This document shows positions 24,494 through 38,828 of a stretch of DNA of 39,707 nt, piece after piece. Each line of letters starts with the position of its first letter. Positions within the stretch are counted from its first letter, which is position 1. The position numbers and the translations under genes were made by a program. The notes under the pieces were generated by a model. That model ran no database searches. It was not told the DNA's origin and was given only the letters and a program-made list of their open reading frames with translations. Source of the DNA: Muribaculaceae bacterium Isolate-013 (NCI) (GTDB taxonomy: Bacteria > Bacteroidota > Bacteroidia > Bacteroidales > Muribaculaceae); the NCBI GenBank assembly GCA_004102785.1, contig SCEJ01000029.1, positions 1 to 39,707 on the forward strand, given 5' to 3'.

Positions 24494-24889
24494 ATGTCAC
24501 ATGACCAATTTGGCAAAATCCCGCAGTTGCGCGATTTGCAGGAGGAAATAATGCAGGCGGTACTTGAAACATTCGAGGACGCGCGCCGTTAAGGCGCGGA
24601 AGTGGAGGAGGCTATGGAGATGGCAATCCCGGAACTTTTCACCAATATAGGAGAGTCAGAGTATGACATCGTTTCCGGATTCATACTTGACAACTTCGGT
24701 GACACCATCGATCTTGACAGCGAGGTTGCGGTGGAATGCTGGACAACTCAGGTGATGACCGACATTCCCGACCTGTTTGACGGGTTCGACCGTCAAGCTA
24801 TAAGCGTGGACGCGCTCGAAATGGAGCGGAAGGAGACAGAAATTGTAGGCAAAATCGTGATAAATCTTACCGACAATGGCTTACAATAA
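24494..24889 (+). pseudogene. Small hypothetical gene split by an in-frame stop
   Basis: Frame 24494-24592 encodes 32 residues (MSHDQFGKIPQLRDLQEEIM...). It ends in TAA, and the same frame reopens at once to 24889 (from ATG 24614: MEMAIPELFTNIGESEYD...). The two pieces have similar acidic, helical character and no frameshift separates them, so I read them as one protein of about 130 residues broken by a stop codon. They could also be two separate small genes. I do not recognise a family. The end overlaps the start of the next, decayed, gene by 14 nt, an arrangement suggesting a former conjugative-element operon. Confidence 0.5.
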
Positions 24890-25289: not shown

Positions 25290-25585
25290 TGCTTCAATAA
25301 TTATCAGCAATTAATTTGAAATTACTCTTCTTATAAGAATATGGTTTATAACTGTATACACAATAAAGTAAGTTAATGCGATGGCAATCATACATGCCCA
25401 GCCTAAAGGTTTATTCGCTATGCAAACATAATATGAAATAAAAAAAATATGGAAGGAGACAATGGTTGCGGAACCTGTTCATATATATGCCTCACGTCGT
25501 GCTTTCTCCGGATTACGATAGAGAAACTGAACCGGCAGCAGATGAAATAATCAAATGCTGTCGGTTTTGTTTTTGTGACATAAAA
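25290..25585. other. Spacer with no clear gene
   Basis: This is AT-rich DNA between the methylase remnant and the convergent porin gene. The only coding candidate is a 19-codon frame at 25462-25521 behind a good Shine-Dalgarno-like GGAAGGAG. It has no recognisable product and may be debris. Confidence 0.4.
25531..25575 (+). terminator. Terminator-like hairpin past the porin gene
   Basis: ACCGGCAGCA (25531-25540) pairs with TGCTGTCGGT (25556-25565, one G-T) and is followed by TTTGTTTTTG on the plus strand. On the minus strand it lies 20 nt beyond the porin stop but has a poorer T-tract. It may serve both directions. Confidence 0.5.
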
Positions 25586-26593
25586 TCAAAAATGGGCTAC
25601 AAATTCCATGACTATCTTATTCTGTTCTGAAATTGCCGGAGTTACTCCTTTGTTATAAAAATATTGTTCATAGTTGAGGCGAATATCTGCCTGTAATGAT
25701 TTCTTTCCCAGACTCAATGTAACACCTCCAGTCAGTCTATGCCTTTCAGGATCATCTACTTTGAGATTGCCGGACTCATCTTTCGTACCTTTGCTGTGAT
25801 CTGACATATAGTCATACCTTCCGAGGAATGATATGGAAGTCAGACCTTTTTTCATCGGAAGTCGATATGCGGCAAATGCGTCAACCGCATTTACAGGCGT
25901 GAAAGAGCCGTGGGCATAGTGCTTGCGGAGATATTCCGCCTCGATGTGCCATCTCCGGTTTTGCCAGTAGACCCCTGCATCGTACATCATCACGTTCACA
26001 TCCCCGGCATTTGCCTTCTGGCAACTGAATGTAATATTAAATTGCCGGGCAATCATTGTCTGCGCCTTGAACGAGAAATTATAGTTGTTGGTCCAGAAAT
26101 GTTTTTGATTTGTCAGTCCTGAGCCGTTGAATATACCTCCTTCAAGCGTAATGGGCATACGGTCGTTGAATGTCCACGATGCTGATGCTCCTACATCGCG
26201 CACATTGCCGACCTGCTTTGCTATGAAAGAACGATTGGCGAAATACTGTAGGTGAGGTGAACGATGGGCATCAATGGTAAACGGCACTCTCATCTGACCG
26301 AAGGTGAACTTTAACACGTCTTTAGGTTGCAGACGTATATATGCGTCAAGCATCTTTATAGTACCCTCGTCCGAAAGGTCTATCTCGGCCTTGTATCTTA
26401 CAATAGGAATCACCTTGCCTTCCACGCTCAGACGCGCATTGCGTATCTCAAAGCGTCCCTTATCTATTTGAGGCTCATATTCATATTTGGCCCGGATAGT
26501 CCCGTGTATTTCAGGGATGAATGGATTTTTATCCTGAGCCACGGCAGGCAATGCAAATACAGACAATGCCGTCATAATTAAAATTCGTCTCAT
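25586..26593 (-). CDS. Phosphate-selective porin O/P family outer-membrane protein
   Basis: This is a 335-residue outer-membrane barrel with signal peptide MRRILIMTALSVFALPAVAQ. It resembles the OprO/OprP porin family: HGTIRAKYEYEPQIDKGRFEIRN-type N-terminal strands, FGQMRVPFTIDAHRSPHLQY (about 96-115), and alternating strands through to a terminal Phe (MEFVAHF). Such porins pass phosphate or polyphosphate across the outer membrane. Its start overlaps the stop of the PhoU-like gene by 4 nt, so the two are co-translated. Ion selectivity is inferred from family and phosphate-gene context. Related Bacteroidetes proteins are annotated only as porins. Confidence 0.82.
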   Translation of the reverse strand: MRRILIMTALSVFALPAVAQDKNPFIPEIHGTIRAKYEYEPQIDKGRFEIRNARLSVEGKVIPIVRYKAEIDLSDEGTIKMLDAYIRLQPKDVLKFTFGQMRVPFTIDAHRSPHLQYFANRSFIAKQVGNVRDVGASASWTFNDRMPITLEGGIFNGSGLTNQKHFWTNNYNFSFKAQTMIARQFNITFSCQKANAGDVNVMMYDAGVYWQNRRWHIEAEYLRKHYAHGSFTPVNAVDAFAAYRLPMKKGLTSISFLGRYDYMSDHSKGTKDESGNLKVDDPERHRLTGGVTLSLGKKSLQADIRLNYEQYFYNKGVTPAISEQNKIVMEFVAHF

Positions 26594-27288
26594 GCTGTCA
26601 TTGGTTTATTGCTTGTTTCAATGTTTTTGAGTGCCTGTGAAAAGGAGCTGACAAAGGAATGAAGATAATACAGGAGCATAAGATAAGAATAAGCGGGAAC
26701 TCCTTCATCAAAATCTTCATGGGTCATCCCTTTGGAATGTATGGCGATGCTGTGTTCGATAAAATCTTTCTCCAAGCCCGCATCTCCATTAATCTTCACT
26801 GTATCAACATCTGAACTGAGTATGCTGTCAGCTAATTGAAACAGTCGGACAATCCCTCCATGAATTGTTTCGATCTCACATTTGTAATAGATAGGTATAT
26901 AGCCATCCGGGGACGTAACAAGATGACGTGTGGTTTCGGCAATCTTGTCCGTAGCCTCAAGCATATATTCACAATATAGCGCAGTCTTGCCGATAGTATC
27001 GTCAGTGTCTGCCGAACTATTCCGGACTTTATCGCTGATTATATCAATGGTCTGCGAACCGATTCGATGATTCTTGCATACCGCAATATTATCATTGTTT
27101 GAAAGACATTCCAACGCTTTGTCGATAATCGGACCGCAAGACTGCATCGTCATAGTCAAGCAAGACTTTTCAACAGGACGGGCGGGGATAAAACAATACA
27201 TTTCCTTGACCTTACGTCTGCGGATATGCCGTCGCAACATAACGATGATTCCGGCCAAAGCCATTATCAAGAGAACTGTAACGTACAT
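26590..27288 (-). CDS. Membrane-anchored PhoU-like protein
   Basis: This 232-residue protein has one N-terminal transmembrane helix (about residues 2-22) followed by RRHIRRRK, placing the rest in the cytoplasm. The soluble part is helical and follows the same order of features as the C-terminal tail of the Pit transporter encoded just upstream: LYCEYMLEATDKIAETTRHLV, then an acidic middle, then a YLMLLYYLHSFVSSFSQALKNI final helix (compare VLYVYVNLLQETQEMVSSIRKYL in Pit). I therefore call it PhoU/DUF47-like, with moderate confidence and no claim of significant sequence identity. It probably regulates phosphate transport or the kinase. It is translationally coupled to the porin gene. Confidence 0.6.
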   Translation of the reverse strand: MYVTVLLIMALAGIIVMLRRHIRRRKVKEMYCFIPARPVEKSCLTMTMQSCGPIIDKALECLSNNDNIAVCKNHRIGSQTIDIISDKVRNSSADTDDTIGKTALYCEYMLEATDKIAETTRHLVTSPDGYIPIYYKCEIETIHGGIVRLFQLADSILSSDVDTVKINGDAGLEKDFIEHSIAIHSKGMTHEDFDEGVPAYSYLMLLYYLHSFVSSFSQALKNIETSNKPMTA

Positions 27289-27310
27289 GATTTATAGTAT
27301 TTCTTTGATA

Positions 27311-27366
27311 CAAAGTAACCGCATTTTTATTTCACGTTTATATCGGTAATATTAGATAAATATTAA
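27311..27366 (-). promoter_or_regulatory. Putative Pho-type promoter of the phoU-like/porin unit
   Basis: On the minus strand, TTACTTTG (27318-27311) is a slightly degenerate -7 element, 22 nt before the start codon. There is no recognisable -33. Upstream lie 11-nt-spaced AT repeats: TTAA at 27363-27366 and TTAG at 27352-27355 as read on the plus strand. The spacing of 33 nt from the -7 box is the same as at pit. Confidence 0.45.
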
Positions 27367-27390
27367 ATCTATCAGTCAATTACGACATAA

Positions 27391-27419
27391 AAAAGATGGG
27401 AGATATGCACTCCCATCTC
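27391..27419 (-). terminator. Intrinsic terminator of pit
   Basis: On the minus strand AGATGGGAG (27419-27411) and CTCCCATCT pair perfectly around TGCATAT and are followed by TTTTTT. It lies about 30 nt past the pit stop and separates pit from the phoU-like/porin unit. Confidence 0.85.
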
Positions 27420-27450
27420 AACCTTTGGTACAATCCTTTTTACTTAGACT

Positions 27451-29733
27451 TTATACTGTGGGTACCATGATTTTGGCAGGGCGTGTGCGGAAATCCGAGT
27501 CGCGCAGCTTGGCAAACGCCCGCAGATATTTCCTTATTGACGATACCATTTCCTGCGTTTCCTGAAGCAGATTGACATAGACATACAGAACCGCCATTGC
27601 CGATGTGTCTCCGTCGCGGAGCTGGTCATGCACACGATGATATGTGTCGGAAACAGTATCCTTTATCTCGTCACAGTGTCGGCGAAGAGTGCTTATCATA
27701 TCTGTATCCCCGCTCCCCATAAGTTTGACGGTATCATTGAACAGTGTACTTATTTGTGTCCGTATCATCTCGTATTCAGTAGTATATTTGGGAGGCAGAG
27801 GAAGGAAATTGTTGTCGACATGCTCTTTGCAGACCTCGTTGATGCGGCGCAGGTTGTAAAGTATGCCCATACAGCAGTTGTTGCTGAGATAGAACCAAGT
27901 GCTTTTTTCTATCGCCATCTCGCGTGTCAAATGACGCAGACATAGAGTTTCCTTACGGCGAGCGTTTTTAAGCGTGGTTTTTTGGCGGGCGAGACTCGAT
28001 TCCGTCTTGCCGAGAATCCCGGCGCTTTCAGTTATGAAAGCCGATGTTATATCCCGGTATTTTTCCTCGGCATAGATCATGAACTTCTCTTGTTGTTCCG
28101 TGATATACATCATAAGCAACGGCCATGTCTGTGTTTTATCCTGAGTGGATATTATAGTCTGGAACAGTGCATCACCGTTATCTTCTTGTGTCTTCTTTCT
28201 GAACCTCCGGTTGCTGTTGATGATTATGAATATCGTCAAAGCCGCCAACAGAAGCATCACCCACTGACCACCATAGTGCATTGCTGCAACAATCAGTCCT
28301 GCGCCGATAAACGCCGCACCCGCAGTAAGAAACCAACCGCCGATTACGGAAATCACGCCGGTGATGCGGAACACAGCACTTTCACGCCCCCATGCCCTGT
28401 CGGCAAGAGAAGTACCCATAGCGACCATAAATGTTACGAAAGTGGTTGACAGGGGCAGTTTCAGCGAGGTGCCGAGGGCAATGAGTGCTCCGGCAAGCAC
28501 CAGATTGACAGAGCCGCGTATGAGGTCGAAAGCCGCACCTTGATCCATAATGGTCTCATCCACATTAAAACGACGGTTGAACCAACGGCGTACTTTCGCG
28601 GGTGTGACACGCCTTAACCAAGAAAGGAATGATAAGGTCCATCTTACCAGCCGCCGGGCAATGCGGGAAGAACCAAACATCTCATCGCCACCCTGCTGGC
28701 TTCCGAGACCGATTTCAGTCTTGGTCACATTCCGGGCTTTTTTTGACGTTGCAAGTGACACCACCATTATGACTCCGGCACCGATGAGGAAATATATCGG
28801 TGTATTTGCCGGGCCGTTAAGTGAATCCATAAGGAAACCTTTGGAGTCCCCTCCGCCGTTAGCCATAAAATCCTGATATGAAGCCAGACCGCTCAAGGGA
28901 ACACCTATGAAGTTCACAAGGTCATTACCTGCAAATGCCACAGCAAGCGAGAATGTACCCATCAGCACAATTACTTTCAGCACATTAACCTTGCAGACAT
29001 GGAGCAGTTGCATCAGCACTGTAAAAACTGCGAAACAAGACAGTATGATCAGCGCAGTATTGTTTTTTATCCACGCTTTCAGTTCAGGGGTCATGAAAGA
29101 AAGATCTTTAGCCCCTTTAATCAGAAGAAAGTAAACAATCGCAGTTGCACATATACCTCCGAATATTCCTATCTTCCATTTCAGGTTGCTCCAGTAATTG
29201 AACGAGAACACCATACGGGATATGAACTGCACCACCGTTCCGAAGAAAAAGGCTATCGCCACCGACAGGAATATTCCGAGAATCACCGACAGGGCTTTCT
29301 CCGTGTTAAGCAAGTCATCAAAACCGAGACCGATGCCGCCTGCCATTTTAATCAATGCAACGACAAAGGTGGCACCCAGCAGCTCAAAAACCATTGACAC
29401 GGTTGTAGAGGTAGGCATACCCAGCGAGTTGAACACGTCGAGAAGGATGATGTCCGTGACCATTACCGCCATGAAGATGCAGATAAGGTCATAGAACGAA
29501 AAATGCTCGGGACGGAAAATTCCGTGCCGGGCAATCTCCATCATTCCGTTACTCATTGCCGCACCGATGAAAACACCGATGGAAGCGACAATCAGGACTC
29601 TTTTGAATGATGCCGCCTTAGACCCGATAGCCGAGTTCAGGAAGTTGACAGCATCGTTACTCACACCCACCGACAAGTCGAACACAGCCAGCAGGAAAAG
29701 AAAAATTACTACGCAAAGAAACAGTATTTCCAT
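27451..29733 (-). CDS. pit: Pit-type inorganic phosphate transporter with PhoU-like tail
   Basis: This is a 760-residue inner-membrane protein of the PF01384 phosphate transporter family. The two family signatures are present: DLSVGVSNDAVNFLNSAIGS (about 19-38, the GANDV-type motif) and VAFAGNDLVNFIGVPLSG (about 267). About ten to twelve hydrophobic spans fill residues 1-500. From about residue 520 to the end is a soluble, all-helical domain of PhoU/DUF47 character (NCCMGILYNLRRINEVCKEH..., RTQISTLFNDTVKLM), which is absent from short Pit proteins and probably gates or reports transport. It stands alone between a promoter with TTAA repeats and a strong terminator. Confidence 0.92.
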   Translation of the reverse strand: MEILFLCVVIFLFLLAVFDLSVGVSNDAVNFLNSAIGSKAASFKRVLIVASIGVFIGAAMSNGMMEIARHGIFRPEHFSFYDLICIFMAVMVTDIILLDVFNSLGMPTSTTVSMVFELLGATFVVALIKMAGGIGLGFDDLLNTEKALSVILGIFLSVAIAFFFGTVVQFISRMVFSFNYWSNLKWKIGIFGGICATAIVYFLLIKGAKDLSFMTPELKAWIKNNTALIILSCFAVFTVLMQLLHVCKVNVLKVIVLMGTFSLAVAFAGNDLVNFIGVPLSGLASYQDFMANGGGDSKGFLMDSLNGPANTPIYFLIGAGVIMVVSLATSKKARNVTKTEIGLGSQQGGDEMFGSSRIARRLVRWTLSFLSWLRRVTPAKVRRWFNRRFNVDETIMDQGAAFDLIRGSVNLVLAGALIALGTSLKLPLSTTFVTFMVAMGTSLADRAWGRESAVFRITGVISVIGGWFLTAGAAFIGAGLIVAAMHYGGQWVMLLLAALTIFIIINSNRRFRKKTQEDNGDALFQTIISTQDKTQTWPLLMMYITEQQEKFMIYAEEKYRDITSAFITESAGILGKTESSLARQKTTLKNARRKETLCLRHLTREMAIEKSTWFYLSNNCCMGILYNLRRINEVCKEHVDNNFLPLPPKYTTEYEMIRTQISTLFNDTVKLMGSGDTDMISTLRRHCDEIKDTVSDTYHRVHDQLRDGDTSAMAVLYVYVNLLQETQEMVSSIRKYLRAFAKLRDSDFRTRPAKIMVPTV

Positions 29734-29759
29734 TGTTTTCTCAATTACTTATTCTGCCG

Positions 29760-29815
29760 CAAAGTAACTAAGAAAACATTTCATGATTATTTCAAAATCC
29801 TTAACCATTTATTAA
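29760..29815 (-). promoter_or_regulatory. Putative Pho-type promoter of pit
   Basis: On the minus strand TTACTTTG (29767-29760) lies 26 nt before the pit start, without a good -33. Upstream, TTAA occurs at 29801-29804 and 29812-29815, an exact 11-nt period. The gap between the -7 box and the nearer repeat is 33 nt. This fits the layout of an activator of the PhoB type bound beside a weak promoter. Confidence 0.5.
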
Positions 29816-29837
29816 AACTGCCGGACTGACAGAGAGT

Positions 29838-30284
29838 TTAATTGCGGTCAAACCTTATATAGCTCTGTTCGATGGGTTTATACGTCGGGTCATCCCACAG
29901 ACGGCTTGAAATCATCAGGTCCGCACTTATTCGGTTACAGGCAATCGGCACGTTGTGGAGACGACATTGACGCAAAAGCATCTGAATGTCCGCCTCGTGG
30001 GGCTGCGCATTGAGGTCGTCTATCAGGAATATGGCAAGATCAATTTCGTTTCTTACCACCATTGCCGCTATTTCGGCATCACCGCCCATCGGTCCGGAGT
30101 TCATACATTCGATTTGGGCATCTATTCCTGCTTCTGAGAAAGCATTTTTTATAAGCCCTCCAGTCGTGCCGGTACATACCAGCTCATGCTGTGAAAGGTA
30201 TTGGGCGTTGAATTTTACCCAATCGACCATATCGGCTTTGCGTTGGTCGTGAGCTACAAGCGCGATTTTTAGTTTTGTCTTCAT
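29838..30284 (-). CDS. mgsA: Methylglyoxal synthase
   Basis: This 148-residue enzyme converts dihydroxyacetone phosphate to methylglyoxal and inorganic phosphate, a glycolytic bypass that in characterised bacteria is inhibited by phosphate. Motifs are IALVAHDQRK (His/Asp near residue 12), CTGTTGGLI (phosphate site), MNSGPMGGDAEIAA (catalytic Asp) and IDDLNAQPHEADIQMLLR (His and Asp of the active site). The frame continues upstream, but ATG 30284 gives the normal length and overlaps the kinase stop as ATGA, so translation is coupled to the two-component system. Its position in a phosphate-scavenging island is unusual and informative. Confidence 0.95.
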   Translation of the reverse strand: MKTKLKIALVAHDQRKADMVDWVKFNAQYLSQHELVCTGTTGGLIKNAFSEAGIDAQIECMNSGPMGGDAEIAAMVVRNEIDLAIFLIDDLNAQPHEADIQMLLRQCRLHNVPIACNRISADLMISSRLWDDPTYKPIEQSYIRFDRN

Positions 30285-31729
30285 TTTGAGTTTCTTGAAA
30301 ATGTTATTTTGAACAATAATCCACCTGAGCATTGAGTTTCGGCGGAGATTTCACCGCCATGAAGAATCACGGCGTTTTTCACTATTGAAAGCCCGAGTCC
30401 GGTGCCGCCTGCCGCTCGTGACCGTCCCTTGTCAATGCGATAGAACCTTTCAAACAGTCTTGGCAGGTGTTCGGGAGGAACGCCGCATCCGTTGTCGGAC
30501 AATGCAATTACAACTTTATCGTTGTCGATACTGATTAATTCTATTTTTATTCTGGTTCCTCCACTATAAACAATCGCATTGTCTATAAGGTTGTTGAAAA
30601 CGGCCTCAAGCAGAGAAGCATTACCGGCCATGATTACGTTATGAGAAACAAAATTCTCAATCCTTATGCCCTTTGTGGCGGCGATTATCTGTCGGTCCTC
30701 AACCACGTCATTTATTATATCCGTGAGATTAACCTGTTCTTTCAATATAGAGGCGCTTCCGTCGTCCATGCGTGTCAGGATCGAGACATCGGTCAGAAGC
30801 CTTTGGAGCCTTTCTGTGTTTGTAAGACAACGTTGCAGGAACAATATCTGCTTTTCATCGCTCATATTCCTGTGTGCCAGCATCGTCTCCACACAGACCC
30901 TGATTGATGCGACAGGGGTTTTCAGTTCGTGGTTTATGTTATTCGTGAGTTGCTTTTTGATGCGTTCCTTTTCAAGCTGTTCATGGAGGGCTGCGCGATG
31001 TTCGCTGTCCCTGTCAGCGACAGCCTGTTGCAAACGGGCATAAAGGCGGACAATGTGGTTTGAAATCTCGCCAAGCTCGTCATGGGGGAACGGTTCTGTG
31101 TCGGAAATCTGGGCACCGTTTTCTACGTTTTCCGCAAATCTGTTCAGCCTGATTATGTGGAGGCCGACCCTTCGGGTTGCGAAATAGCCAAGTACGCACA
31201 TCACCATTGTGATAATCCCCATAATCCACAGAAAGCCATAATCGGCCTGCAACAGTCCTCTGAATGAAACCGAATATGGCACCGCTGTACGGACAATATA
31301 GCCGTCATCGCTCTTTTGCGCCGAATAAAAATAGTAGTTGCCCGTACTCTCGCTGTGCCGTCTTACAGCATAGCCCGCCCCATGCTGTAAGGCATCCCGT
31401 ATTTCCTGACGGTCAAGGTGGTTGGTTTTAGGCAGGGAATCAAGTGTATTGTCGTATATTATATGTCCCTTGTCGGAAATTACGCTTACACGAATATCGT
31501 TGAACGGTTTGAACTCGTCAAGTTTTATATCCTGGACATCATGCCCTTCGCTCAGTTCTGTAAGAATATATGTGTTGATGAGCTGGAGCTGCTTGTCAAT
31601 CTCTTCCACCTTGAATTCCTTTTCCCTGTGATACTGAAACACGACAAAGCAACCGACCATCAGCAAGGAATATCCAAGAAGCCACACGAACAGCCGCTGC
31701 GGATAGGAGAGCTTATTCAATAAACCCAT
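30281..31729 (-). CDS. Sensor histidine kinase (PhoR-like by context)
   Basis: This is a 482-residue inner-membrane kinase. Transmembrane helix 1 lies at about 13-32, a periplasmic sensor region at about 33-165, helix 2 at about 166-185, then a HAMP linker. The phosphoacceptor is INHELKTPVAS (His267). The ATPase domain has N-box FNNLIDNAIVYS, G1 SDNGCGVPP, F-box ERFYRID and G2 GGTGLGLSIV. All catalytic elements are present. Its start overlaps the response-regulator gene by 17 nt and its stop overlaps mgsA by 4 nt. The role in phosphate sensing is inferred from the neighbouring transport genes. The periplasmic domain itself is not a recognisable phosphate binder. Confidence 0.93.
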   Translation of the reverse strand: MGLLNKLSYPQRLFVWLLGYSLLMVGCFVVFQYHREKEFKVEEIDKQLQLINTYILTELSEGHDVQDIKLDEFKPFNDIRVSVISDKGHIIYDNTLDSLPKTNHLDRQEIRDALQHGAGYAVRRHSESTGNYYFYSAQKSDDGYIVRTAVPYSVSFRGLLQADYGFLWIMGIITMVMCVLGYFATRRVGLHIIRLNRFAENVENGAQISDTEPFPHDELGEISNHIVRLYARLQQAVADRDSEHRAALHEQLEKERIKKQLTNNINHELKTPVASIRVCVETMLAHRNMSDEKQILFLQRCLTNTERLQRLLTDVSILTRMDDGSASILKEQVNLTDIINDVVEDRQIIAATKGIRIENFVSHNVIMAGNASLLEAVFNNLIDNAIVYSGGTRIKIELISIDNDKVVIALSDNGCGVPPEHLPRLFERFYRIDKGRSRAAGGTGLGLSIVKNAVILHGGEISAETQCSGGLLFKITFSRNSK

Positions 31730-32408
31730 AACCGTAGCCCGATCGAGTTACAATATTCTTGCCGTAGCTGCCGATTTTCTGGCGTATACGGGTTATGTTC
31801 ACATCTACAACCCTGTCAAGCACCACAACCTCGTCGGGCCATATCTCGTTGAGCAAATCCGCGCGGGTGAAAACCTGCCCCCGGTTGGAGATTAGTTTGA
31901 GCAGTATCTCAAACTCCTTTTTGGGCATTTTCACCTCCGTCCCGTCAACCGTGCAGGTCCTGTTTTTTGCAGACAGGACCAGCCCCTTGTATGAAACAAG
32001 GTCAGAATCAGTCTTGGCAAGTGCGACAGAAGCCGCCGTACGGCGAAGCACAGTCCTTATTCGGGCAAGCACAGCATTAAGAGAATATGGCTTCATGATA
32101 TAGTCATCAGCCCCGAGATCGAGTCCCGAAATCATATCCTCCTCCGTGTCTTTTGCTGTGCAGAATATGATGGGAACGGAGGCCGTTGCCGGATTCGACT
32201 TCATTATGCGTGCCAGTTGAGTCCCGGATATTTCCCCCATCATAATATCGAGGAGTATCAGGTCATAGGCGGCAAGGTTGAGGGCAAGAGCCTCCTCCGC
32301 GCTATACGCCATGTCGACCTGATAGCCTTCCGCTTCAAGATTGAATCCAAGGCCGTCACACAGGGCTTCCTCATCATCGACAACAAGTATCTTCTTTTTT
32401 GTTTCCAT
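31713..32408 (-). CDS. OmpR/PhoB-type response regulator
   Basis: This 231-residue regulator has a receiver domain (residues 1-120) with acidic pocket DDEE (11-14), phosphoacceptor Asp54 in ILLDIMMGE, and the conserved Lys in IMKPYS (about 105). A winged-helix DNA-binding domain follows (about 135-231, with EFEILLKLISNRGQVFTRADLL and VVDVNITRIRQKI). Such regulators bind tandem sites with an 11-nt period, which is what I see upstream of this operon and of pit. It is first in the regulator-kinase-mgsA operon and divergent from the TonB-dependent receptor. The PhoB role is inference from context. Confidence 0.94.
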   Translation of the reverse strand: METKKKILVVDDEEALCDGLGFNLEAEGYQVDMAYSAEEALALNLAAYDLILLDIMMGEISGTQLARIMKSNPATASVPIIFCTAKDTEEDMISGLDLGADDYIMKPYSLNAVLARIRTVLRRTAASVALAKTDSDLVSYKGLVLSAKNRTCTVDGTEVKMPKKEFEILLKLISNRGQVFTRADLLNEIWPDEVVVLDRVVDVNITRIRQKIGSYGKNIVTRSGYGYGFIE

Positions 32409-32412
32409 GCCG

Positions 32413-32474
32413 CAAAATTACTAATAATCGGTTAAATACCATCCTAATACTCAAAAGTTTAATAAAAGTTTAAT
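32413..32474 (-). promoter_or_regulatory. Putative Pho operator and promoter of the regulator operon
   Basis: On the plus strand AGTTTAAT occurs at 32456-32463 and 32467-32474, an exact 8-bp direct repeat with an 11-nt period. On the minus strand TAATTTTG (32420-32413), an exact TAnnTTTG -7 element, ends 4 nt before the regulator ATG, and no -33 element is visible. The repeat lies in the divergent region shared with the TonB-dependent receptor, so it may control both directions and give autoregulation. Confidence 0.6.
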
Positions 32475-32574
32475 GACACAATCTATTTCATAAAATCTAA
32501 ACAAATCTGATAAACCCATGAAATATTAGTTGGCGAATTTTGCAGCGTGAATCAGAAACAAAACAACAATCACA

Positions 32575-35325
32575 ATGAAAAAAGTAATGTCAACTTTTTG
32601 GGTCGCACTTGCTTCAAGTCTGACCATTATGGCGGCTGACAGTCCGAAATACGGACAACTTAAAGGCCGCATCCTTGACAATGAGAAGAACCCGCTGCCG
32701 GGAGCGGTGGTTATCATTGACAGCAACAAGCTGTCGGCGGTTACAGATCTCGACGGCTTTTTCTCGTTTGCCAACCTTTCATCCGGGAATCATAATCTGA
32801 AAGTAACTTATATCGGTTTTCTTCCGGTCAGTAAAACAATCGTGGTTTCGGAAAAATCGACGGTTGACGACATTGTAATGTCGGATACATCACGGGAACT
32901 GAATGAAGTTGTAGTGACCGGCGTTTTCTCCGGGCAGCAGAGAGCCATAAATGCCCAGAAGAATAATGTCAATATAACCAATGTGGTGTCTGCCGACCAG
33001 ATTGGCAAATTCCCCGACTCGAATATCGGAGACGCTCTGAAACGGATAAGCGGTATCAATGTGCAGTATGATCAGGGCGAGGCCCGCTTCGGTCAGGTAC
33101 GCGGCACTCCGGCTGAGTTCAGTTCAGTGACAATCAACGGGTCAAGACTGCCATCGGCCGAGGGAGACATTCGCAATGTTCAGCTTGACCTTATACCGTC
33201 CGATATGATTCAGACAATAGAGGTCAGCAAGACACTTATGCCGGATCAGGACGGCGATGCTATCGGCGGTTCTATCAACCTCGTTACGAAAAATTCGCCA
33301 CACAGATTTACTGTCGGAGCCGTAGCGGGAACAGGCTACAACTGGATAAGCCGTAAGGCGCAGATGAATTTCGGACTCACTCTCGGTAACCGTTTCTTCA
33401 ATAACCGCTTCGGAGTGATGCTTGCGGCCTCCTATAATAATGCGCCAGCCGGATCATATAATACAGAATTTATATGGGAAAAGGATGACGACGGCAAAAT
33501 CTATGTCAACGACTATCAGATAAGGCAGTATTATGTCACACGAGAGCGACAGAGCTACTCATTGTCGCTCGATTGGAAGTTCAATGACTTCAACAAGGTC
33601 TGGTTCAAGGGTATTTTCAACAACCGCAATGATTGGGAAAACCGTTACAGGACAACACTCAAAGACATTACGTCCGAAGGGAAAGCCGATGTGCGTGTCC
33701 AGACAAAAGGAGGTTCGGGTGACGAACGAAACGCCCGTCTTGAACGCCAACGGACAATGGATTTCACTTTGGGAGGTGAAAACCGTTTAGGTATCCTTGG
33801 CATGGACTGGAAACTGGGATATGCACGGGCTACGGAGAAACGCCCGAATGAGAGATACATCGACTACCGTCTCAAATCGCAGAGGTTCAGTTTCGACCTG
33901 AGTAATCCGAGAGAGCCATTTGCCACTCCCGACGAAGGATATACAATGACCTTGAATGATGACTTTTCGCTCAAAGAGCTTACACAGCAGCAAGAGGATA
34001 TTGTGGAGCAGGACTTCAAGGCGGCACTGGATTTCAAGGCCCGACTTAGCGAACGCTCAAAAATCAAGTTTGGATGCAAGTTCGTGAACAAGACAAAAGA
34101 TAAGGAGATAGACTATTACGAATACACTCCGCTTGACAAAAAGGCATTTAACGCAGATGCGCTTGCACATACCACAGACCAAAGTACCGACAGATTCATG
34201 CCTTCCTCAAAATATCAGGCTGGCACATTCGTTGACAAGAAATTTCTTGGCTCCCTCAATCTTGACGATTCCAATTTGTTTGAGCGAGAGCAAATTGCAG
34301 AGGAACTTGCGGGCAATTTCCATGCGAGGGAGAATGTGGCATCAGGTTATGTGCGTATTGATTCCAGACTTTCCGACCACCTTAACTTTATGGGCGGTCT
34401 GCGTGTCGAGAACACATCACTGCGTTACATAGGCAGAAATTACGATGATGAATCCAACAGCGTCTCCAAGACCGAGCCTGAGACTTCAAATTATATAAAT
34501 TTCCTCCCCTCATTATTATTGAAATGGGACATCAATAAGGATTTCATGCTGCGTGCCGGTTATAACCAGTCCATATCCCGGCCAAAATATTCCGCACTCG
34601 TTCCCGGCATGAATATCAAACGTGGCGACAATGAGATAAGGATCGGGAATCCCGGTCTGAGAGCAACGACATCTCACAATATCGACCTCAACGCTGAATA
34701 TTATTGGAAATCAATCGGACTTGTGTCCGCCGGAATTTTCTATAAAAGAATAGAAGGCTTCATCGTGGACGAAGTGGCATACAACAAGGAGTATCAGGGT
34801 ACTGTCTGGACTAAGTTCACACAACCTAAAAACGGTGGAAACGCTAATCTTTTCGGAGTGGAAATGGCATGGCAGCGCGATTTCAGTTTCATCACACCGG
34901 CGATGAAGTGTCTCGGACTTTACGCTACATACACCTATACCCACTCACGCATTACCGACTTCAACTTCGAGGGCCGTGAAAACGAGAAAGGCCTTAGCTT
35001 GCCCGGTTCTCCCGAGCATACAGCCAATCTCTCGCTATATTTCGACAAGTGCGGTTTCTCCGCAAGAGCCTCATTCAACTATGCCTCGGCATTTATCGAC
35101 GAAATGGGCGCAAGTTCGTTCTACGACCGATACTATGATGCCGTGAAATATCTGGACCTGAACGTCAGCTACACATTCGGGCGCAAAACAAAAATAACCG
35201 TATATGCCGACTGCAATAACCTCCTCAACCAGCCTCTGCGCTATTATCAAGGTAGCAAGGACTACACGATGCAGCAGGAATATTACGGAGTGAAACTCAA
35301 CGGCGGTGTAAAAGTAACATTCTAA
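32575..35325 (+). CDS. TonB-dependent receptor
   Basis: This is a 916-residue outer-membrane receptor that imports a ligand using TonB energy. The signal peptide covers residues 1-20. A carboxypeptidase-regulatory-like beta-sandwich (about 27-105: GQLKGRILDNEKNPLPGAVV, VTDLDGFFSF) precedes the TonB-box-like ELNEVVVTGV (about 110-119). Next comes the plug (IGDALKRISGINVQYD, IGGSINLVTK), then a 22-strand type barrel ending GGVKVTF. There is no SusD partner. Instead, 12 nt downstream lies a secreted phosphatase, so the ligand is probably an organophosphate or its product. It is divergent from the response regulator and has a weak -7 (GAATTTTG, 32535-32542). Confidence 0.94.
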   Translation: MKKVMSTFWVALASSLTIMAADSPKYGQLKGRILDNEKNPLPGAVVIIDSNKLSAVTDLDGFFSFANLSSGNHNLKVTYIGFLPVSKTIVVSEKSTVDDIVMSDTSRELNEVVVTGVFSGQQRAINAQKNNVNITNVVSADQIGKFPDSNIGDALKRISGINVQYDQGEARFGQVRGTPAEFSSVTINGSRLPSAEGDIRNVQLDLIPSDMIQTIEVSKTLMPDQDGDAIGGSINLVTKNSPHRFTVGAVAGTGYNWISRKAQMNFGLTLGNRFFNNRFGVMLAASYNNAPAGSYNTEFIWEKDDDGKIYVNDYQIRQYYVTRERQSYSLSLDWKFNDFNKVWFKGIFNNRNDWENRYRTTLKDITSEGKADVRVQTKGGSGDERNARLERQRTMDFTLGGENRLGILGMDWKLGYARATEKRPNERYIDYRLKSQRFSFDLSNPREPFATPDEGYTMTLNDDFSLKELTQQQEDIVEQDFKAALDFKARLSERSKIKFGCKFVNKTKDKEIDYYEYTPLDKKAFNADALAHTTDQSTDRFMPSSKYQAGTFVDKKFLGSLNLDDSNLFEREQIAEELAGNFHARENVASGYVRIDSRLSDHLNFMGGLRVENTSLRYIGRNYDDESNSVSKTEPETSNYINFLPSLLLKWDINKDFMLRAGYNQSISRPKYSALVPGMNIKRGDNEIRIGNPGLRATTSHNIDLNAEYYWKSIGLVSAGIFYKRIEGFIVDEVAYNKEYQGTVWTKFTQPKNGGNANLFGVEMAWQRDFSFITPAMKCLGLYATYTYTHSRITDFNFEGRENEKGLSLPGSPEHTANLSLYFDKCGFSARASFNYASAFIDEMGASSFYDRYYDAVKYLDLNVSYTFGRKTKITVYADCNNLLNQPLRYYQGSKDYTMQQEYYGVKLNGGVKVTF

Positions 35326-35337
35326 AAATACAAAACA

Positions 35338-36261
35338 ATGATTCGTAAATTTCTTATCGCGGCTTTGGCTCTCATCACATCTTTTGGAGCCATTGCCCAG
35401 ACTGAAATCGCCAAAGGCGATGTGAACCTGATGGTAGTGTCAGACCTCGGACGTAATGGTCACTATGACCAGAAGCCTGTTGCCGCGACGATGGGTAGAA
35501 TTGCAGAACAAATAGGACCCGATGCTATTCTTGCTCTTGGGGACACACATCACTACGGCGGAGTGGAAAGTGTGACAGACCCGTTGTGGATGACCAACTA
35601 TGAGCTTATCTACGACCACCCGGAGCTTATGGTGAACTGGTATCCCGTCTGCGGCAACCATGAATATCGCGGCAACACTCAGGCGGTTATTGACTATTCC
35701 GGCATATCTCGCCGTTGGGAGATGCCGGCAAGATATTACACCAAGACCTTTGAAGATGACGGGACAACTGTCAAGGTGGTATTTCTCGACACTACTCCTT
35801 TGATTGACAAATACAGGAAAAAGACCGAAACATATCCCGATGCTGTGAATCAGGATACCGAAGCCCAGTTGCAATGGCTCGAAAAGACTTTGACAGAGGC
35901 GACGGAAGACTGGATCGTTGTGGTCGGTCATCATCCCATCTATGCCTATACTGACAAGTCGGAATCTGAGCGGGCAGACATGCAGAAGAAAGTTGACACA
36001 ATTCTGCGGAAGCACAATGTGGACATGTATATCTGCGGTCATATCCACAATTACCAGCACATCCGCCGCCCGGATTCAAAAATCGACTATGTGGTCAACA
36101 CATCCGGCTCCCTCACACGGACTCCGAAACAAATCGAGGGCACCGTATTTTGCAACAATTCTCCCGGATTCTCTGTCCTGACCGCCGACAAAGAGAATCT
36201 TAAACTGAATTTGCTCGATAAAGAAGGCAAAACCATACATGTGGTAAGCCGCACCAAATAA
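35338..36261 (+). CDS. Secreted metallophosphatase, purple acid phosphatase-like
   Basis: This is a 307-residue calcineurin-like phosphoesterase with signal peptide MIRKFLIAALALITSFGAIAQ. Dinuclear metal ligands appear in order: VSDLGRNG (Asp36), LGDTHHYGG (Asp69), CGNHEYRG (Asn107, His108), VVGHHPIYAY and CGHIHNYQH. Order and spacing follow the tartrate-resistant (ACP5-type) acid phosphatases. At the position of the family's metal-binding Tyr (D-x-x-Y) the ungapped alignment gives His72, with Tyr73 next to it, so the enzyme may not be 'purple'. It probably strips phosphate from organic esters outside the inner membrane. It is co-transcribed with the upstream receptor and ends before a strong hairpin. 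Confidence 0.9.
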   Translation: MIRKFLIAALALITSFGAIAQTEIAKGDVNLMVVSDLGRNGHYDQKPVAATMGRIAEQIGPDAILALGDTHHYGGVESVTDPLWMTNYELIYDHPELMVNWYPVCGNHEYRGNTQAVIDYSGISRRWEMPARYYTKTFEDDGTTVKVVFLDTTPLIDKYRKKTETYPDAVNQDTEAQLQWLEKTLTEATEDWIVVVGHHPIYAYTDKSESERADMQKKVDTILRKHNVDMYICGHIHNYQHIRRPDSKIDYVVNTSGSLTRTPKQIEGTVFCNNSPGFSVLTADKENLKLNLLDKEGKTIHVVSRTK

Positions 36262-36302
36262 TACATGGCTTATGTGATATTCTGACAAATAACTACAAAA
36301 CT

Positions 36303-36352
36303 CAGATACGTTTCATGCTCTTTCATGGAACGTATCTGACTGTGTATTTTAA
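36303..36352 (+). terminator. Terminator of the receptor/phosphatase operon
   Basis: CAGATACGTTTCATG (36303-36317) pairs with CATGGAACGTATCTG (36324-36338, one non-Watson-Crick pair) around CTCTTT. A T-rich stretch follows. It starts 41 nt after the phosphatase stop. Confidence 0.75.
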
Positions 36353-36372
36353 TAATCTAAATTTATCTAACA

Positions 36373-36654
36373 ATGAACAAAATCCTCATTGTAGATGCCT
36401 CCGACTCCGACCGTCGGCTCATGGTTGGCTTGCTTACGCGAGCCGGCTACGAGCCGATAGCAGTCGAGACGATGGAGGCTGCAAAAGACGAGGTGGCAAA
36501 ACTGCCATCCGGCGCAGTGATTGTCGCGGCGATGAAATTCGTCCGTGGCACAGCGCAGAAGTTAACCAACTGGTAGAGGACTAAGGGATACGGATTTACC
36601 GTAGCCGCCATAACACTCATTCAAAAAGGGATTATTTTGCAAACTCATATATAA
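36373..36654 (+). pseudogene. Broken pseudo-receiver gene, copy 1
   Basis: ATG 36373 opens a receiver-like N-terminus (MNKILIVDASDSDRRLMVGL...) that stops at TAG 36574-36576 after 67 codons. The same frame then continues with RTKGYGFTVAAITLIQ to a stop at 36654. This looks like the continuation of the same fold (expected pattern N-W-L-K-x-E-G-Y-x-F-P-V-I-A), so the TAG is probably a nonsense mutation. The usual phosphoacceptor Asp is replaced: the third strand reads GAVIVAAMKF where receivers have an Asp. A sister copy lies at 38870. The parent protein's function is unknown to me. It may belong to mobile-element regulators. Confidence 0.7.
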
Positions 36655-36903: not shown

Positions 36904-38208
36904 GTGAATTATAGCTATAAACAAATATGGCTCATCGCATATCCTGTGATGATGAGCTTTCTTATTGAACAGCTGATAAATATAACCGATGCCTTGTTCT
37001 TGGGGCATGTCGGTGAAATCGAACTTGGCGCATCCGCACTTGCCGGAATATGGTTCTTGGCAATCTATATGCTTGGCTTAGGGTTCAGTGTAGGGTTGCA
37101 AGTTGTAATTGCACGACGCAACGGAGAACAAAAATACGAAGAAACTGGAAAAACGTTTTTTCAAGGCCTGTGTTTCTTACTGATACTTGCGTCATTACTT
37201 TGTCTGTTATCAAAGTTCTTTTCTCCACAACTATTAAAGTATCTGATTACCTCTCCCGAAGTCTATAATGCAGTTGTCAAGTATCTGGATTGGCGTATAA
37301 TAGGATTGTTCTTCTCTTTCCCGTTTCTTGCCATCCGCTCGTTTTTAGTCGGCATTACAGAAACAAGACCTCTGAATTTAGCTGCTTTAACTGCCGTATT
37401 GATGAACATTCCTCTCAACTGGCTTTTGATTTTCAGATATGATATGGGTATATCAGGAGCCGCTATCGGCTCTTCATTTGCAGAGTTGTGCTCATTGTTG
37501 ATATTGGTAGCTTGTATGTTTCTTTGCGTAAGAAAACACAAGTATGGTTTATCTTGGCGTATAGACATAAAAATACTAAAAGAGGTGTTTTCTGTCTCTG
37601 TCTGGAATATGCTCCAGTTTTTTACAAGCGTAGCCATCTGGTTCTTGTTTTTTATCGCTATTGAGAGATTGGGAGAAATCGAATTGGCGGTATCTAATAT
37701 TGTAAGAAGTGTTTCCGCTTTATTCTCTGTTATAGTAACTGCATTGGGGGCTGTCACAAGCTCTTTGGTAAACAATTCAATTGGCGCAGGTGAGAGAAAT
37801 GCTGTTTTTCCGCTTTGTCATAAGGTAATCCGATTGGGGCTTTATATCGGTACCCCATTGATTATTATTGCGTTGTCACTTCATCAATTAATTATCGGGG
37901 CATATACTGAAAATCCGGTTGTTAAGCAAATCGCATGGCAACCATATGTGGTTATGCTTCTGAATTACTTCTTCGCACTGCCGGGTTATATTTATCTTAA
38001 TGCGGTGACAGGTACCGGTGCGACAAAGACCGTATTCTTTTTTCAAGTAATCACTACTATCGCCTATTTATTCTGTTTATGGGGATTGAGTAATCTCAAT
38101 GTCCGATTGGCAACTTATTGGAGCGTAGAATATCTATATGTGATAATGCTCGGTATTCAATCTTTTATTTATCTGAAATTATACAATTCAAAAAACAACA
38201 GGATATGA
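36904..38208 (+). CDS. MATE family efflux transporter
   Basis: This is a 434-residue inner-membrane antiporter of the multidrug and toxic compound extrusion family, with about twelve hydrophobic spans. The opening [20 protein letters not shown] and [20 protein letters not shown] (about 33-52) are typical of the DinF/NorM-like group, and [18 protein letters not shown] follows. Translation appears to start at GTG 36904, since the next Met would cut the first helix. GC content is clearly lower than in the core genes, suggesting acquisition. Its stop overlaps the start of the acetyltransferase gene (ATGA), so export and modification are probably co-expressed. The substrate is unknown. Confidence 0.92.
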
Positions 38209-38828
38209 TGAATAAAATATATCCCCGTAAGGGTGACACACAAACCGTTTATCTGAACGCAGTGGTTAAAGACCCGTCGATTGAGGTAGGTGATTACACG
38301 ATTTACAATGATTTTATCTCAGACCCTCGTCAGTTCGAGCAGAATAATGTGCTGTATCATTACCCAATTAATCATGAGCGACTGATAATTGGCAAGTTTT
38401 GTTCCATTGCCTGTGGTGTAAAGTTTCTGTTTAACTGTGCCAACCATACACTAAAATCTTTGTCAACCTATACCTTCCCTCTGTTTTATGAAGATTGGGA
38501 ATTGGAGAAGTCAAATGTAGCCTCTGCTTGGGACAACAAAGGTGACATCGTGATAGGCAATGATGTATGTATTGGTTTTGAGGCAGTTATTCTTGCCGGT
38601 GTAAAAATCGGAGATGGTGCCATTATAGGAACAAGAGCAGTCGTAACCAAGGATGTTCCTCCTTACTCTATCGTTGGCGGTATACCGGCAAAAGTAATCC
38701 GCAAACGGTATAGCCCGGATATTATTGAGCAACTACTGTCGCTTCGGTGGTGGGATTGGACAAAGGATAGAATAAAAAGAAATCTCCCATTCATTATGGC
38801 TGGCAATATTGAAAACATGACAGAATAA
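38205..38828 (+). CDS. Vat/CatB-like O-acetyltransferase (hexapeptide repeat)
   Basis: This is a 207-residue xenobiotic acetyltransferase-type enzyme with a left-handed beta helix. The opening [20 protein letters not shown] and GDYTIYNDF match streptogramin A acetyltransferases. The catalytic His is in [18 protein letters not shown] (about residue 80). Hexapeptide coils follow ([30 protein letters not shown], in part), then [15 protein letters not shown] and LLSLRWWDW. It would inactivate a hydroxyl-bearing drug by acetyl transfer from acetyl-CoA. Whether the substrate is a streptogramin, chloramphenicol or something else cannot be decided here. It has two adjacent start codons (38205, 38208), the first overlapping the MATE stop. 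Confidence 0.85.

Follow-up and report, generated by a model that had tools for sequence, protein, structure and literature searches.

A methylglyoxal synthase gene in putative phosphate-starvation operons of Muribaculaceae and other Bacteroidales

Why would a gene for an enzyme that makes methylglyoxal directly follow the genes of a phosphate-type two-component system? The purpose of deliberate production of this toxic compound by bacteria has been debated for decades. The question is raised by contig SCEJ01000029.1 of Muribaculaceae bacterium Isolate-013 (NCI), of which positions 1 to 39,707 were analyzed (39,707 nt, the window). A response regulator gene, a sensor kinase gene, and mgsA, which encodes methylglyoxal synthase (MgsA), lie there in series on the reverse strand. 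A first-pass annotation had proposed that mgsA is translationally coupled to a PhoBR-like pair and forms a phosphate-starvation bypass. We consider it probable (about 0.72) that mgsA functions within a phosphate-starvation (Pho) operon and that its product would release phosphate from dihydroxyacetone phosphate (DHAP) under low phosphate.

The three genes overlap in series, exactly as that annotation stated. The regulator and kinase genes share 17 nt, and the kinase gene and mgsA share 4 nt (ATGA). From these overlaps we infer that the three are translationally coupled. The mgsA start used was the ATG at 30284, which gives the ATGA overlap; the start in the open reading frame list, 30332, is merely the first ATG past a stop. 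The regulator passed the Bacteroidetes PhoB criterion (the NF053854 cut-off), and the best match of the kinase was the Bacteroidetes PhoR model NF053855. In the predicted kinase model, two long N-terminal helices flank an alpha/beta domain (predicted local distance difference test score, pLDDT, 77.7; predicted template modeling score, pTM, 0.39). With membrane topology judged by sight, this domain is probably extracytoplasmic. MgsA passed the NF003559 cut-off, and its TIGR00160 score of 141.4 bits was slightly below the cut-off of 146.9. It matched 11 solved methylglyoxal synthase sequences (best E 3.2e-33). The signature AHD, TGTTG, SGPxGGD, and HxxD was intact in the window protein and in the three solved enzymes with printed alignments. 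We take Asp71, His98, and Asp101 (E. coli numbering) to have roles in the MgsA active site.

Searched across Bacteroidales, the linkage of regulator, kinase, and mgsA recurred. NF003559 detected 23 MgsA copies in 21 of 149 genomes of the family. Eleven copies from eight genera were in PhoBR loci (the window, L035–L039, L041, L043, L044, L048, and L052), which excludes a gene order found by chance in this genome only. In L052, other phosphate genes intervene between the kinase gene and mgsA. A set of 80 named loci, which overlaps the family set (identical MgsA in both), contained 16 PhoBR-linked loci (L089–L101, L103, L110, and L130), one with the regulator only (L102), and 63 without a link. 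Several unlinked named contigs stop less than 1 kb from mgsA on one side, so a neighbor there could be missed. L117 (also L049) and L120, which have kinase- or regulator-like genes about 2–5 kb from mgsA on the opposite strand, were counted as unlinked. The layouts varied: kinase–mgsA–PiT (a phosphate permease gene); that of L048 and L110; that of L103, with PiT divergent; and that of L052 and L130, where mgsA separates the PhoU-like gene from the porin gene. The linkage of PhoBR and mgsA exceeds chance, though many linked copies are recent transfers of one island. Paramuribaculum intestinale contained the island mgsA (L097) and a second mgsA (L051, 8137–10462, the same as L102). The second copy comes after a kinase-less PhoB-like regulator and a hemerythrin/LuxR-type regulator.

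A separate MgsA lineage was found in pst operons. The locus of a more distant genome of the order, G402, reads porin–pstS–pstC–pstA–pstB–mgsA–phoU–phoB–phoR. In the family of G402, 11 of 104 genomes had MgsA, and four of the 11 had pstB–mgsA–phoU (G402, G625, G621, and G577; three genera), G577 without adjacent phoBR. G258, from a different family, had the full porin–pstSCAB–mgsA–phoU–phoB–phoR operon. In total, pstB–mgsA–phoU was present in five genomes of two Bacteroidales families, four of them with phoB–phoR at the operon end. Compared with the classical pstSCAB–phoU–phoBR operon, these genomes add mgsA between pstB and phoU, whereas the window has PiT and a PhoU-like protein in place of Pst. 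At the G402 locus (L235), PstS, PstC, PstA, PstB, MgsA, PhoU, PhoB, and PhoR each passed a curated cut-off, and the porin scored 25.7 bits against the Porin_O_P cut-off of 20.9. PstB was present in 91 of the 148 mgsA-positive genomes examined for it (125 places), out of at least 203 mgsA-positive genomes. The distance between mgsA and pstB was below 1 kb in three of the 91 (G402, G258, and G297), with 0.07 expected for 3.5-Mb genomes; two of the three are operons, G297 is convergent and was not counted as one, and G402 had already been identified when the count was made. The pst-type MgsA formed one clade (support 99/93), and a single clade of pst-type and PiT-type MgsA was rejected (p = 0.00036). 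This result argues that a different MgsA lineage was recruited independently into pst–phoU–phoBR operons. Three unlinked mgsA genes of the pst-type family (L242, L243, and L245) stand directly after an acetate kinase gene.

The window locus itself is part of an island. A roughly 11-kb block (25453–36533 at its fullest) was 87–98% identical at the DNA level in L089–L099, over the part that each contig holds. These loci are from Muribaculaceae records and from Palleniella muris (91%), Prevotella sp. MGM1/MGM2 (96%), and Bacteroidaceae bacterium IMSAGC_004 (88%); L100 and L101 were 85% identical across 7 kb. In the NCBI taxonomy, Palleniella muris belongs to Prevotellaceae and Duncaniella muris to Muribaculaceae. 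Because copies with 91–96% DNA identity occur in Palleniella and Prevotella records, the island is mobile. Where the contig continues, similarity stopped near 25.5 and 36.4 kb in L090–L093, and it extended to about 38.9 kb in L095, L096, and L098. Genes for a MatE transporter and a hexapeptide transferase (window 36904–38828) are in the conserved block of the latter three loci and not of L090–L093. The neighbors in L052 were a TraG-like coupling protein, DUF1896, and a giant MutS_I/helicase protein; a giant MutS_I/helicase protein also adjoined L090, and a transposase adjoined L093. The window contains a DUF1896 protein fragment (24602–24889), likely the remnant of a conjugative element at the island edge. 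A plasmid origin was considered and rejected, as no megablast match was found in the plasmid collection.

A mobile phosphate-uptake island might have gained mgsA by chance and spread for its transporters, with mgsA co-expressed and without a role in the phosphate response. The high identity of the block across genera and in records of another family fits this explanation, as do the conjugation genes adjoining it in L052, the DUF1896 fragment, and the existence of mgsA-less versions. Against it, mgsA occurs in several layouts, and the six mgsA-bearing loci were not one clade on a kinase and regulator tree of 16 loci (approximately unbiased test, p = 1.2e-7). The tree required four changes, three of them forced by well-supported branches; therefore, the history of these loci includes more than one gain or loss of mgsA. 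A short MgsA tree did not reject a single origin of PhoBR-linked MgsA within the family (p 0.15 and 0.25). Another MgsA lineage is in pst operons of other families, and chance insertion is not expected to strike pho operons repeatedly. We regard carriage by chance as unlikely.

A candidate regulator-binding site was found upstream of the operon. A 22-bp motif was trained on 25 upstream regions from loci that lack mgsA, including one from the same genome as the window. It is a tandem unit with an 11-bp period and the majority sequence TTTTGAAACATTTATGAAATAT. Its first and second scores in the window were at the operon and PiT sites (Table 1), above the maximum of 18.6 in 40 shuffled windows; no site was found at mgsA itself. 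Since these promoters and the training set are in part orthologous, the result counts as footprinting and not as independent proof. The only perfect match in the genome to an IUPAC (International Union of Pure and Applied Chemistry) pattern of the box, built from the sites seen, was the operon site itself. The Muribaculaceae motif did not match the pst-type operon promoters (p 0.32–0.60 in five of five). Four of these five had a different 11-bp repeat (shuffle mean 0.004), with the pattern picked after viewing the sequences.

The genes around the operon are listed in Table 1. PiT, the 232-aa PhoU-like protein, and Porin_O_P are encoded downstream of mgsA, and the receptor and the metallophosphatase are on the divergent side. 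The first-pass annotation had called all surrounding genes phosphate-acquisition genes. This is true of the nearest five and fails beyond them, where the DUF1896 fragment, the MatE transporter, and the hexapeptide transferase are found. The receptor and the phosphatase are putative members of this group, judged by family and context. The 232-aa protein had no family match in curated profile libraries. Its AlphaFold model (pLDDT 70.6) was built from eight sequences. The best PDB matches were 3l39 and 1xwm, PhoU-like and PhoU structures (E 0.02, probability 1.00, template modeling score about 0.4–0.5, none below E 0.001), and the top one is Bacteroides thetaiotaomicron BT4638. A match of this protein to the PiT C-terminus (20 bits, E 0.038) was not accepted as homology. 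Its profile matched none of the frames called in 20 mgsA-less loci.

Table 1. Genes and putative promoter sites of the phosphate locus in the window
Feature	Position	Strand	Basis or score
PhoB-type response regulator, 231 aa	31713..32408	(-)	NF053854 RespRegPhoBBctds 331.1 bits, cut-off 270; Response_reg and Trans_reg_C
PhoR-like sensor histidine kinase, 482 aa	30281..31729	(-)	NF053855 best match, 472.7 bits, cut-off 500; HisKA and HATPase_c
mgsA, methylglyoxal synthase, 148 aa	29838..30284	(-)	NF003559 168.4 bits, cut-off 84
Putative Pho-box-like 11-bp tandem repeat ATTAAACTTTTATTAAAC, region common to operon and receptor gene	32455..32476	(-)	22.1 bits
Putative Pho-box-like tandem repeat TGAAATAATCATGAAAT, upstream of PiT	29776..29797	(-)	19.7 bits
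PiT (PHO4) phosphate permease, 760 aa	27451..29733	(-)	PF01384 79.4 bits, cut-off 33.7
PhoU-like helical protein, 232 aa, N-terminal hydrophobic helix (by sight)	26590..27288	(-)	Predicted fold
Phosphate-selective-type porin (Porin_O_P)	25586..26593	(-)	PF07396 45.7 bits, cut-off 20.9
TonB-dependent receptor, divergent from operon	32575..35325	(+)	TIGR01782 486.8 bits, cut-off 310
Calcineurin-like metallophosphatase	35338..36261	(+)	PF00149 76.2 bits, cut-off 21.5

How might such an operon work? Low phosphate would activate the PhoR-like kinase, and the PhoB-type regulator would bind the tandem 11-bp boxes that precede PiT and the regulator's own operon. The operon would be transcribed as regulator–kinase–mgsA. 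More MgsA would then be made when cytosolic phosphate is low, which is when phosphate would inhibit the enzyme least. MgsA would convert DHAP to methylglyoxal and phosphate; the cell would thereby recover phosphate and draw off the triose phosphate trapped in it. Meanwhile, the porin, the TonB receptor, the phosphatase, and PiT would raise uptake. The same control of mgsA could serve sugar-phosphate relief, growth slowing, or protection against stress through methylglyoxal instead of phosphate supply. Low phosphate stalls glycolysis at glyceraldehyde-3-phosphate dehydrogenase, a point in favor of relief. Relief and supply are inseparable by sequence data; we think a purpose other than supply quite unlikely.

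MgsA as an enzyme of phosphate limitation is an existing idea. MgsA is thought to be important under phosphate limitation and is inhibited by phosphate (PMC11850910), and phosphate recovery is one theory for deliberate methylglyoxal production (PMC12291648). In Clostridium beijerinckii, added mgsA and mgR lowered phoU mRNA (PMC11497831). The proposed function resembles the methylglyoxal bypass of E. coli and others in enzyme family and in the suggested role in phosphate limitation (PMC11850910, PMC12291648). Its control differs: the control described for that bypass is exerted by phosphate or, for Bacillus subtilis, by Crh (PMC12291648), and the excerpts of these two papers do not describe a pho-operon placement. 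The first-pass annotation knew of no mgsA in a pho operon, and among the matches listed in the open-access literature, partly in excerpt, we likewise found no report placing mgsA in a pho or pst operon. Among the closest known systems is the Flavobacterium johnsoniae PhoBR locus (Fjoh_0541–0549), which also has PhoB, PhoR, OprP (PF07396), and a TonB receptor (there PF13715/PF07715). Its receptor and PhoB were up under phosphate depletion. Unlike the window, that operon lists no mgsA (Table 1 of the source) and no PiT, and the word methylglyoxal is absent from the main text (PMC8115612).

Several results weigh against a working Pho operon. The kinase was below the PhoR cut-off (472.7 vs 500; 482 aa vs a 583-position model) and is therefore called PhoR-like only. 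No PstB over the cut-off was found in the genome (best 139.1 vs 343.2; PstS, PstC, and PstA were not searched), so the signal must reach the kinase otherwise than in E. coli. Twelve of the 23 family MgsA copies are outside PhoBR loci; one of them (L051) adjoins a PhoB-like regulator without an adjacent kinase, and the remaining 11 are unlinked. None of 29 loci from the order search (L060–L088, flanks about 1.5 kb) showed a regulator, kinase, or PiT. Among 80 more distant mgsA-positive genomes of the order, 16 had this PhoB (E ≤ 1e-75), beside mgsA only in G402. The window PiT has relatives in 71 of the 149 family genomes. At 20 further PiT loci, regulator and kinase were near PiT in nine and mgsA in none, so mgsA is optional; the closest mgsA-less layout (L199) has nearly the order of the window with the receptor more distant. 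With AT-rich intergenic shuffles, the motif gave p 0.002 at the operon, 0.008 at PiT, and 0.09 upstream of the PhoU-like gene. The IUPAC pattern had 12 matches in the genome vs 27 for its reversed control, which is no enrichment, so it defines no regulon. In F. johnsoniae, OprP and PhoR were not significantly induced under phosphate depletion (PMC8115612). The gut lumen has been argued to be phosphate-rich and hence to inhibit Salmonella MgsA (PMC11850910), and the methylglyoxal pathway of a Clostridium was insensitive to phosphate (cited in PMC12291648).

The kinase score and the missing PstB would also suit a two-component system that senses a non-phosphate cue, such as envelope or metal stress, with the phosphate genes incidental. 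The regulator passed the PhoB cut-off, however, and PiT, the PhoU-like protein, Porin_O_P, and the phosphatase adjoin it. In addition, a receptor and PhoB are phosphate-responsive at the similar Flavobacterium locus (PMC8115612). We therefore consider a non-phosphate cue very unlikely. A phosphate signal might pass via PiT and the PhoU-like protein, or via the periplasm; this is a guess. PstB (E ≤ 1e-70) was found in 19 of the 149 family genomes. A link between mgsA and missing PstB was tried and not accepted: PstB was in none of 21 mgsA genomes vs 19 of 128 others (p 0.076 by Fisher's test, which is not significant, with kinship as a confounder). The genome has two further PhoB-type regulators over the cut-off (G000:C71:22691-23359 and G000:C342:50988-51659). 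The C71 regulator has a partner kinase with 52% identity to the window kinase, so a second PhoBR pair may have come with the island.

For the starvation bypass of the first-pass annotation, the recurring linkage, the neighbors, the motif, the repeated gain or loss of mgsA, and the second MgsA lineage in pst operons speak in favor. The kinase score, the missing PstB, and the lack of genome-wide motif enrichment do not. On the sequence evidence, the arrangement is real, recurrent, and convergent, and its Pho control is well supported. Low-phosphate induction and metabolic benefit would follow as a strong and testable inference. A broader view, to which we give even odds, is that Bacteroidales made glycolytic phosphate release part of the Pho regulon at least two times, with MgsA under two gates, PhoBR at the level of transcription and phosphate at the level of the enzyme. 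One version would travel between families on a mobile phosphate island, in the searched family in genomes without recognizable PstB.

The position of mgsA between pstB and phoU, or directly after PhoBR genes, makes the phosphate-recovery theory testable in named strains such as Duncaniella muris DSM 103720 and Palleniella muris NM73_A23, both of which have the locus. Several of the Bacteroidales with mgsA in a putative phosphate-starvation operon are mouse-gut bacteria. If the proposal is true, phosphate limitation would be linked to the methylglyoxal made by microbes, which is of medical interest. The recurrence of mgsA in different phosphate operons suggests that internal phosphate release may be part of the starvation programme in these bacteria.

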